Origin: Halorubrum sp. 2020YC2
GTDB lineage: Archaea > Halobacteriota > Halobacteria > Halobacteriales > Haloferacaceae
Direction of reading: 5' to 3'
NCBI RefSeq assembly: GCF_018623055.1
Contig: NZ_CP076019.1
Coordinates: 1 to 64,000, forward strand
Length of the DNA: 64,000 nt
The notes beneath the pieces are model-generated. The model saw nothing but the letters and a program-made list of their open reading frames with translations, searched no databases and was not told where the DNA came from. Shown in pieces: positions 5,811-14,383 of this stretch; position 1 is the stretch's first letter; each line of letters begins with the position of its first letter. A program made the position numbers and the translations under genes.

Positions 5811-6073
5811 CCGCCCCCGACGAGGTCCCGCACGACGTTCGCGCGAGCCTCGAACAGCTGCTCGCGGCGGCCGCGGACGCGGCGGCCGAGGGCGACGCGG
5901 CGACCGCGCGCGCCGCCCTCGACACGGCCGAGACGGTGGCGACGAACAAGCTCCCGCCCGGCGAGCGGCGCGACCGGGTCCGGTGGGGCTGCGCGGCCGC
6001 GCTCGACGCGCTCCCGAACGGCGACCTCGCGGCCGCGTACGCGACGGCGACCGCGGACGCCGTCGACGAGTAA
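5807..6073 (+). CDS. Small conserved haloarchaeal protein, unknown function
   Basis: An 88-residue product starting at a GTG that overlaps the methyltransferase stop by four bases. It is alanine-rich and helical, with a central RAALDTAETVATNKLPPGERRDRVRWGCAAAL segment split over two helices, and no membrane segment or metal motif. Tight coupling implies co-expression with the methyltransferase and perhaps a shared pathway. I do not recognise a function. Confidence 0.7.
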   Translation: MTAPDEVPHDVRASLEQLLAAAADAAAEGDAATARAALDTAETVATNKLPPGERRDRVRWGCAAALDALPNGDLAAAYATATADAVDE

Positions 6074-10430: not shown

Positions 10431-12029
10431 ATGTTGAACGCGATCACCGCGCGGTACGGCCGGCGGGTCGGGGCGGCCGTGGTCTTGACCCTCGGCGTGA
10501 CGCTCGGGTTCATCGCCCTCTTCGCGGGGCACGTCGCGACGGTCGGGACTCCGGCGGCCGCGACGGCGGCGCTGACCGCGGTCGGCGTCGTCGTCACGCT
10601 GAATCTCGGGCTGCTGGGTATCGTGCTGATCGGGAACGTCGCGGTCGAGCTCCGACGGTTGACGCAGACGGCCGAGGCGGTCGGCCGCGGCGAGTTCGAC
10701 GCGAGCGCCGCCTCCGACCGCGGCGACGAGATCGGGCGGCTGTTCGACGCTTTCGACGAGACGCGGCGGTCGCTCCGCGACGCGGTCGCGGAGTCCGAGC
10801 GGGCGCAGTCCGAGGCCGAGTCGGCCCGCGAGGAGGCGGAGGCGATGTCTGACACCCTCCTAGAGCGCGCCGAGGACATCGGCGGCGCCATGGAGGACGC
10901 CGCCGAGGGCGACCTCACGCGCCGGCTCGACGAGGACAGCGAGGTCGACGCCATCGAGCGCATCACGGCGGCGTACAACGAGATGACCGGCGGGCTCTCG
11001 ACGACGGTCGAGGACATCCAGTCGTTCGCGGGCGACGTGGAGGCGACGAGCGAGGAGATGGCGGCGGAGGCGGACCAGGTCGCCGGGATGAACGAGGAGG
11101 TGGCCGACGAGATGCGCGCGCTGGCCGACGAGCTGGACGAGCAGACCGACCGGCTGCGCGAGACGGCCGCCGACACCGACGACTTCTCCGCGACGGTCGA
11201 GGAGATCGCCTCCACCACCGACGAGGTGGCGGGCGACGCGAGCGCTGCGGCCGACCTCGGCGAGGAGGGCGAGCGGCGGGCGACCGAGGCGGTCGAGGCG
11301 ATCGTCGCGATCGGCGACCTGCTGGAGGACCTCGACGGCCTCGTCGCCGGACTCGACGACCGGATGGACGGCGTCGCGGAGACGACCGACGTGATCGCGG
11401 ACATCGCGGAGCAGACCAACATCCTCGCTTTGAACGCCTCGATCGAGGCGTCGCGGGCGGGCGGCGACGGCGACGGGTTCGCGGTCGTCGCGGACGAGGT
11501 GAAGGGGCTCGCGGAGGAGACGCGCGAGTCCACCACCGAGATCGAGGCGACGATCGGCGAGGTGACCGAGGACGTGTCGGCGGTCGCCGGCGAGATGGAC
11601 CGGACGATGACGGAGCTAAACGAGACGACGTCGGCGGTGCGCGCCGCGGGCGACGCGATAGAGGAGCTGACCGGCACCGTCGAGGACGTCGACGTCGCGA
11701 TGGGCGACATCGCGCGGGCGACCGACGAGGGGGCCGAGGGGATCGAGTCGGTCGCGGCGCGCGTCGAGGCGGTCCACGGCTCCGCCACCGACGCCGCGGA
11801 CCGCGCGCGCTCGCTCGCGGAGACCGCGGACGACACCGCCGAGACCGTGGGCGACCTCGCGGAGACGGCGACGGCGCTCGCTCAGCGGACCGCGTCGCTC
11901 ACCGAGCGCCTCGACCAGTTCGAGACGCGGGCAGACGCGGACGCGGCCGCGGTCGACGCCGCGGGGGCGGACGCCGCGGCGGGGGTACCGCCCCGCCGGA
12001 GCCGACCGCGGAGGGCGACGCGGAGGTGA
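10431..12029 (+). CDS. Membrane chemotaxis transducer with HAMP and MCP signalling domains (HtrII-like)
   Basis: A 532-residue transducer. Two transmembrane helices (about residues 14-36 and 42-66, the second containing [14 protein letters not shown]) are separated by a very short external loop, so there is no extracellular ligand domain; this is the architecture of sensory-rhodopsin transducers. A HAMP domain follows ([20 protein letters not shown]), then a second HAMP-like segment and the long coiled-coil MCP domain with its signalling tip [16 protein letters not shown] near residue 330. The C-terminal tail is Ala/Asp-rich then basic. A Shine-Dalgarno-like GGAGGTGA at its end serves the opsin-like gene six bases downstream, so the two are made together. 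Confidence 0.93.
12022..12029 (+). promoter_or_regulatory. Ribosome binding site for the opsin-like gene
   Basis: GGAGGTGA lies seven bases before ATG 12036 and includes the transducer stop codon, supporting translational coupling and fixing the downstream start. Confidence 0.65.
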
Positions 12030-12035
12030 GCGCCG

Positions 12036-12776
12036 ATGATTGAGCCGTCGACGGTGCGGTTCGCCTCCGCGGCGATATACGCGGTGTCGGCCGTCGTGCT
12101 GGTCGCGCTCGCGCGGCGCAAGCCCGCCGAACTGCGCCGGTACTGTTACCCCTTCGTCGCGGTCGTGGCGCTCGCGGGTGTCGGGGTCGCGGGCTGGGGC
12201 GCCGGGATCGGAACGTTCTCGGTCGCGAGCGGAACGTTAGAGGGCGGACAGCTGCTCACCGACTACGTGGCGTACCCGTTCCTGTTCGGCTTCGCGACGT
12301 TCGTCGCGGGGGTGAGCCGGCGGTACGTCGGCGGCGTCGTCGCCGTCACCGTCGCGATGCGGCTCGGCTACGACTTCGCGGAGGTGTTCGAGGGCCCGCT
12401 CGCGACCGCGGGCACCGCTGGCATCCTCGTCGGGTACGCGACGCTGGTCGCGCTGTTCTTCGGGCCGGTGGCGAGCGCGGCGGCCCGGCAACCCCCCGCG
12501 CGGGAGCTGTTCTACAAGAAGACGCGGAACCTGTCGCTGTTCGCGTTCGGCGTGCTGATCGCGTGGGCGATGCTCCAGATCGCCGGGCTGTTCGATCAGT
12601 TCACCGCGACGGTGACCCTGGAGTACCTCGACCTCCTGCTCCGGGTCGGCTTCGCCGGCTTCGTGTTCGCGAACGTGGAGACGCTGGCGGCGGAGGCGGA
12701 GTCCGGGGTCGGGGGGGACGGCGGCAACGTGAGTCGGGACGCGGGCGCGACGCGGTCGGCGTCGAGCGCGGACTGA
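12036..12776 (+). CDS. Seven-helix microbial-opsin homologue lacking the retinal lysine
   Basis: A 246-residue protein with seven hydrophobic segments. Helices E-G match sensory rhodopsin II/bacteriorhodopsin: FGPVASAAARQ, then KKTRNLSLFAFGVL, then LEYLDLLLRVGFAGFV. In helix G the Asp (D199, bacteriorhodopsin D212) is kept, but the Schiff-base lysine position (K216) is Arg203, codon CGG at 12642-12644. In helix C, aligned on Pro81, the R82/D85/W86/T89/T90 positions read Gln72, Thr75, Asp76, Ala79, Tyr80. In helix F, W182/Y185/P186/W189 read Phe171, Leu174, Ile175, Ala178. The retinal pocket is therefore gone while the fold and transducer coupling appear kept. It is placed after the transducer as sop genes follow htr genes. 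Confidence 0.85.
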   Translation: MIEPSTVRFASAAIYAVSAVVLVALARRKPAELRRYCYPFVAVVALAGVGVAGWGAGIGTFSVASGTLEGGQLLTDYVAYPFLFGFATFVAGVSRRYVGGVVAVTVAMRLGYDFAEVFEGPLATAGTAGILVGYATLVALFFGPVASAAARQPPARELFYKKTRNLSLFAFGVLIAWAMLQIAGLFDQFTATVTLEYLDLLLRVGFAGFVFANVETLAAEAESGVGGDGGNVSRDAGATRSASSAD

Positions 12777-13157: not shown

Positions 13158-13183
13158 CCTGCCTGTTTGGCGTGAACAGAGAG

Positions 13184-14383
13184 ATGGCCGGACCGTTCAG
13201 CGACATCGAGCGTTCGATCTTCGCCGCCAAGGAAGTTCTCTCTGAGGACTACCAGCCCGATCAGATACTCGAACGCGACGACGAGATCGACGAGTATCGC
13301 CACGCGCTCGAAGACGTTCTCTTCGGCCGGACCCCACAGAACGTCATGTTGTACGGGCGGGCCGGACTCGGGAAGACCGCTGTGACGACTTACATGACGG
13401 AGGCGCTACGAGACGAAGTTGCGGAGCGTCCCGCCGCGGACGAACTGTTCGTCCACGAGTTGAACTGCAACGGGAAGACGGTGTACTCGGTCGTCCGAAC
13501 GCTGGTCAACGAACTGCTTCCGGAGGCGGCCAGCGACTTCCCAAAACGAGGGCTCAGTACCGCTGACGCGTTCGAGGAACTGTACGCGCAACTCGACCGG
13601 CGGGGTGGGACGCATCTCGCCGTGTTCGACGAGATCGACCACCTCGGCGACGCCGACACGCTCCTGTATGAACTCCCTCGGGCGCGCTCGATCGGTCACA
13701 TCGAAGACTCGAAGGTCGGTGTCATCGGTATCAGTAACAACTACACCTTTCGTCAGGACCTCTCCCCGAAAGTCAAGGACACGCTGATGGAGGCCGAGAT
13801 TTCATTCAGCCCCTACGACGCCAGCGAACTTCGGGCGATACTCGCAGACCGCGCCGACCGCGCGTTCGTCGACGGCGTCTGTGACGACTCGGCCGTCGCG
13901 AGGGCGGCCGCGATCGCAGCGAAAGACGGGGGGAACGCTCGCCAGGCGATCGACCTCCTCCGGGTCGGCGGCGAGGTGGCGAAGAAGCGTGGCGACGACA
14001 GCGTCGACGATTCACACATCGTCGAGGCTCAAGACCTCGTCCAGCGCGGTCGGCTCCGCAATCGAATTCGAGACCAAACCCAACACGCCCGGTTCCTGCT
14101 CGAAACGCTCGCGTACCTCGAAGACCGAGGAGAAACGCCCGCGCGTTCGAAGACGATCAAAACCCGGTACGAGCGCGTGGCGGACTCACACGCGGTGGAC
14201 CCGCTCACGACGCTGAAAAGCATTCAGAACCACCTCTCGGACCTCCACATGCTCGGATTCCTCCATCGAACCGACCGAAATCAGGGCGAGAGCGGCGGCC
14301 GTTATTACGAGTACGGTCTCGACCTCGACTCCGATATCGTCCTCGACATCAGAGGTGAGATCGAGACCGAACGGGACCGGTGA
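13184..14383 (+). CDS. Orc1/Cdc6-type replication initiator
   Basis: A 399-residue AAA+ initiator. Walker A is GRAGLGKT (residues 58-65), Walker B LAVFDEID (145-152), sensor 1 GISNN (182-186) and sensor 2 GNARQAIDLL, followed by a C-terminal winged helix (about 310-395) for origin binding. ATG 13184 was preferred over GTG 13172 because it sits at the expected distance from the TATA box. The protein is expected to bind the repeats on both sides and load the MCM helicase. Haloarchaea carry many orc paralogues, and the adjoining accessory DNA suggests a secondary, lineage-specific origin rather than the conserved oriC1. Confidence 0.93.
   Translation: MAGPFSDIERSIFAAKEVLSEDYQPDQILERDDEIDEYRHALEDVLFGRTPQNVMLYGRAGLGKTAVTTYMTEALRDEVAERPAADELFVHELNCNGKTVYSVVRTLVNELLPEAASDFPKRGLSTADAFEELYAQLDRRGGTHLAVFDEIDHLGDADTLLYELPRARSIGHIEDSKVGVIGISNNYTFRQDLSPKVKDTLMEAEISFSPYDASELRAILADRADRAFVDGVCDDSAVARAAAIAAKDGGNARQAIDLLRVGGEVAKKRGDDSVDDSHIVEAQDLVQRGRLRNRIRDQTQHARFLLETLAYLEDRGETPARSKTIKTRYERVADSHAVDPLTTLKSIQNHLSDLHMLGFLHRTDRNQGESGGRYYEYGLDLDSDIVLDIRGEIETERDR

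Follow-up and report, generated by a model that had tools for sequence, protein, structure and literature searches.

Within the window, i.e., the whole stretch of 64,000 nucleotides from Halorubrum sp. 2020YC2, two adjacent genes encode an HtrII-like transducer and an opsin homologue (Table 1). A sequence-only reading had described them as a two-gene module with clean frames, and both frames are indeed open and intact, with 532 and 246 amino acids, respectively. The transducer matches the Pfam families HAMP (9.5e-10) and MCPsignal (7.3e-39). Also the start of the opsin homologue six bases behind the transducer, together with its ribosome site, was read correctly, since GGAGGTGA precedes the ATG by 6 nt. 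The neighbourhood consists of an ABC ATPase, an acyl-CoA thioesterase, the transducer and the opsin-related protein (ORP). Just downstream of the pair an Orc1/Cdc6 gene is located (13172-14383). A gene for CheA is present in the same genome.

Table 1. Features of the transducer-opsin locus in the window.
Feature	Position	Strand	Basis
HtrII-like transducer with two N-terminal TM helices and a short loop, HAMP (aa 66-117) and MCP signalling domain (aa 283-449)	10431..12029	+	Open frame, Pfam, orthologue alignment; TM helices read from sequence only
Transducer tail, frame shifted relative to relatives	11985..12029	+	DNA alignment, translated tails of relatives
Shine-Dalgarno-like GGAGGTGA	12022..12029	+	6 nt before the opsin ATG, read from the sequence
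Opsin homologue of ORP group A; seven helices, SRII-like, no retinal lysine	12036..12776	+	phmmer, AlphaFold, Foldseek, tree
Thr75-Asp76 codons (D85/W86 positions of bacteriorhodopsin)	12258..12263	+	Alignment, residue table
Arg203 codon CGG at the retinal lysine position (K205 of SRII, K216 of BR)	12642..12644	+	Alignment; synonymous codons in orthologues

The coupling of both genes is a general property of the relatives. A survey of whether a transducer precedes the lysine-less opsin, as the sequence-only reading had proposed, revealed a transducer directly upstream in 61 of the 64 group A loci, and in 55 of these both genes overlap, by either 8 or 4 nt. Of the three remaining loci, one lies at a contig end. 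The gap of 6 nt is therefore a local peculiarity. Here, the last ~15 codons of the transducer are out of frame compared to its relatives, and the other frame yields an orthologue-like end, ...GDAEVSADD*. The divergence of the transducers correlates with that of the opsins (r=0.96, without a correction for shared ancestry). A conserved third gene around the pair, which might hint at a ligand, was sought and none was found; the neighbours vary by lineage. The unit thus consists of the transducer and the opsin alone.

On sequence level, the nearest solved relatives of the opsin homologue are sensory rhodopsin II structures (phmmer against the PDB, E 2.3e-7 to 2e-6). The Pfam profile Bac_rhodopsin gave no match to it at E<=1, so opsin searches based on Pfam miss such proteins. 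An AlphaFold2 model of the opsin as a single chain, i.e., not in complex with the transducer, was calculated with 32 orthologues as input and displays seven helices and the B-C hairpin at a mean pLDDT of 86.5. Its top Foldseek matches in the PDB are SRII molecules from SRII/HtrII complexes, with TM scores of ~0.8-0.88. The seven-helix fold of microbial rhodopsins is thus present.

The retinal site, however, is largely dismantled within this fold. The alignment to SRII bears out the exchanges noted before: Arg203 aligns with K205 of SRII and K216 of BR, and the Schiff-base lysine of helix G is absent. Thr75 lies at the position of the D75 counterion, which is absent as well, and Asp76 at that of W76. 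In helix F, Phe171, Leu174 and Ala178 are found in place of W171, Y174 and W178. Furthermore, Gln72 replaces Arg72 of SRII. These findings support the conclusion that the opsin homologue cannot form the usual Schiff base. The claim that D212 is kept holds for the window protein, where Asp199 aligns with D201, but not for the group, in which this position is Asn, Ser, Gly or Ala in other members; Arg203 is nearly invariant. Among 32 sequences with 31-88% identity to the window protein, the invariant columns include Tyr80, Lys162, Arg164, Asn165, Tyr197 and Arg203 and do not include Asp199. Of these, Tyr197 corresponds to the SRII signalling residue Y199.

A reading error at the Arg203 codon, which had been named as a possible flaw, is ruled out, since all 19 close orthologues encode Arg at this position, using the three synonymous codons CGG, CGC and CGT. 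This invariance, together with a median dN/dS of 0.28 in the core in comparison to 0.75 in the C-terminal tail (same 19 orthologues), answers the suggestion to look for selection on Arg203: the opsin homologue is under purifying selection. With its SRII-like fold, its HAMP/MCP partner and this selection, the view of a seven-helix, transducer-coupled receptor that cannot form the common Schiff base is supported.

In contrast, the idea of an undescribed system, with no established transducer-linked example in haloarchaea, did not hold. The window pair is an instance of a described class, the group A ORPs; the class, its residues, its gene order and the hypothesis itself were published by Becker et al. 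2016 (PMC4915679), who also tested retinal binding. In that study 80 haloarchaeal genomes were surveyed and 48 lysine-less opsin-related proteins were found. Group A occurs mainly in Halorubrum and carries the exchange of Lys to Arg as well as W76D, Y174L and W178A; 15 of the 16 group A ORPs adjoin a HAMP/MCP gene. An ABC ATPase and an acyl-CoA thioester hydrolase are given as neighbours in a supplementary legend. Transcripts of ORPs were detected, mass spectrometry of the native hosts failed to detect ORP protein, and taxis to a stimulus other than light was proposed. An expressed ORP of H. distributum showed no band at 480-580 nm with retinal. Later functional work on haloarchaeal ORPs was sought as well, and no functional study was found in the literature collection searched.

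Beyond the main text of Becker et al. 2016 are the covariation of a charge pair, described below, and the wider structure of the clade. All lysine-less haloarchaeal opsins fall on one side of a branch with a support of 100/100 and split into five groups that each occupy a single branch; two of these groups were named in that study (PMC4915679). Group A, likewise separated at 100/100, combines Arg203 with an acid at 75/76, and the window protein clusters with Halorubrum sequences. Matches are present in 26 of the 52 Halorubrum genomes and in many other haloarchaea, far beyond the genus within the order; H. distributum harbors an orthologue with 85% identity to the window protein. Group B displays Leu, Val or Phe at 203 and Gly75-Tyr76.

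Three further groups were observed. A third one has Arg203 and keeps Asp/Glu75-Tyr76 as well as Tyr174 (L199, L210-L212, L214, L217-L219, L222-L224, L226, L228). The transducers of this Arg203-Asp/Glu75 group are ~750 aa long, their HAMP begins near residue 300 and their large N-terminal region lacks a Pfam match. A fourth group contains His203 with Asp75 (L235, L238, L243), and here the transducer gene lies downstream rather than upstream. The fifth group carries Val or Thr at 203 (L109 at G041:C14, L220); a search for a transducer within the 7.5 kb surroundings of the L109 opsin gave no match.

Taken together, we consider it likely, with a probability of about 80%, that the group A ORP and its cognate HtrII-like transducer represent a chromophore-free receptor for taxis to a non-light stimulus, which arose from the sensory rhodopsin lineage. 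Mechanistically, a small molecule, an ion or a proton would enter the emptied retinal pocket and perturb a buried Arg203-Asp76/75 pair at the former site of Schiff base and counterion. A movement of helices F and G would then be passed on to TM2 and the HAMP domain of the transducer, further to CheA and finally to the archaellum.

It is also conceivable that the transducer itself is the sensor, e.g., of the osmotic or membrane state via its TM helices and HAMP domain, and that the opsin is a structural partner holding or tuning it in the membrane. This would fit to the translational coupling of both genes and to the fact that they hardly ever occur apart. Furthermore, an extracellular loop is nearly absent from group A transducers, and if they sense anything, this would have to take place in the membrane or the cytoplasm. 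Nevertheless, the residues Asp76, Tyr80, Arg203, Leu174 and Ala178 deep in the pocket are conserved beyond the needs of a scaffold, which renders this explanation unlikely.

Less probable still is a role as photoreceptor, with retinal or another chromophore held non-covalently or at another site. An alternative chromophore was left open by Becker et al. 2016 (PMC4915679), and the genome of Halorubrum sp. 2020YC2 encodes two Brp/Blh homologues and three canonical opsins. However, the aromatic pocket is dismantled, a conventional photoreceptor was rejected, and the ORP lacking the 480-580 nm band stems from the same species as the 85% identical orthologue. Moreover, six carriers outside the genus (G073, G133, G257, G289, G333, G431), at least 97% complete, contain neither Brp/Blh nor a canonical opsin, and in two of them (G257, G431) the Bac_rhodopsin matches are solely their own lysine-less proteins. 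Carriers without retinal synthesis or canonical opsins strengthen the assumption of a stimulus other than light, which had been reasonable already when made from the sequence. The argument from an absent retinal pathway was made before by Becker et al. 2016 (PMC4915679); our carriers were picked independently, and some genomes may overlap with theirs. For Halorubrum sp. 2020YC2 itself, we infer the independence from retinal from these relatives.

An additional observation concerns the canonical HtrII gene of this genome, which lies beside SRII (G000:C1, about 355,842; L118, near position 5845) and displays a frame change shortly past the HAMP region. In contrast to the opsin-related pair, which is intact, the transducer of ordinary phototaxis thus seems to be either broken or mis-sequenced.

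Some copies of the pair are degraded. One is an in-frame fusion from the transducer start to the opsin end (L097 in G025). In another the opsin is frameshifted next to an intact transducer (L102 in G179). Stops occur in L174 and L194, and G033 contains an additional opsin fragment (G033:C69:23047-23262). The least probable explanation is that the gene arose by duplication of SRII and is decaying, as these few broken copies might suggest. A pseudogene was rejected, because the majority of copies, spread over many genera, are intact, Arg203 is invariant, the core dN/dS is low and the transcription of a relative has been published (Becker et al. 2016, PMC4915679).

Positions 203 and 75/76 covary. 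When lysine opsins are counted as well, 83 opsins carry an acid at 75/76 together with a basic residue at 203, 34 contain neither and two only the basic one (a halorhodopsin and L191). The acid hence accompanies the basic residue in 83 of 85 opsins, and both are absent in all 34 others. Within group A, the acid at 76 has been lost in five lineages with R203, four of which retain an acid at 75; the only branch lacking Arg203 (L116, L117, L121) has lost the acid as well. The two to three independent pairs, from approximately three independent changes of residue 203, are too few for significance in a sign test. This pattern among aligned residues is suggestive, with few independent changes, of a buried basic/acid charge pair that may replace the Schiff base and its counterion. 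A salt bridge is unmentioned in the main text of Becker et al. 2016 (PMC4915679).

That specifically the Arg203-Asp76/75 pair acts as the switch is possible, but the odds are somewhat against it. Equally tentative is the wider proposal that in one lysine-less haloarchaeal clade the switch of protonated Schiff base and Asp counterion was replaced by one made of amino acids only, a buried pair of Arg/His203 and Asp/Glu75/76 gated by a ligand, an ion or a proton in the emptied pocket. If true, a different mode of sensing would be expected for the subclades that have given up the pair, i.e., for group B and the Ser/Tyr203 branch.

The linkage of lysine-less opsins to taxis transducers points to chemoreception as a further role open to the microbial opsin fold, comparable to that of GPCRs but in prokaryotes. 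Concrete mutants and clean strains for testing the stimulus are provided by the charge-pair pattern and by the carriers that lack retinal and canonical opsins.

In comparison to known systems, the window pair has its fold, the gene pairing, the Tyr199 position and a HAMP/MCP transducer in common with SRII-HtrII of Natronomonas pharaonis. It differs from this SRII by the absence of the retinal lysine, the D75 counterion and the pocket aromatics and by Gln72 at the position of Arg72, at an identity of 21-22%. Lysine-less microbial rhodopsins are also known from bacteria, namely Rh-noK and the freshwater FArhodopsins (PMC10308929). Unlike the window opsin, these are linked to a proton-pump paralogue or flotillin and have no transducer. 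The group B ORPs of Natrialba and relatives are lysine-less haloarchaeal opsins as well and often transducer-linked, but contain Leu, Val or Phe at 203 and Gly75-Tyr76 and form a separate clade. With the group A ORPs (PMC4915679), finally, the window pair shares the genus, the exchange of Lys to Arg, W76D, V108M, Y174L, W178A and the conserved Tyr199 position, as well as the adjacent HAMP/MCP transducer, the ABC and thioesterase neighbours and an intact gene, and no feature separates the two.
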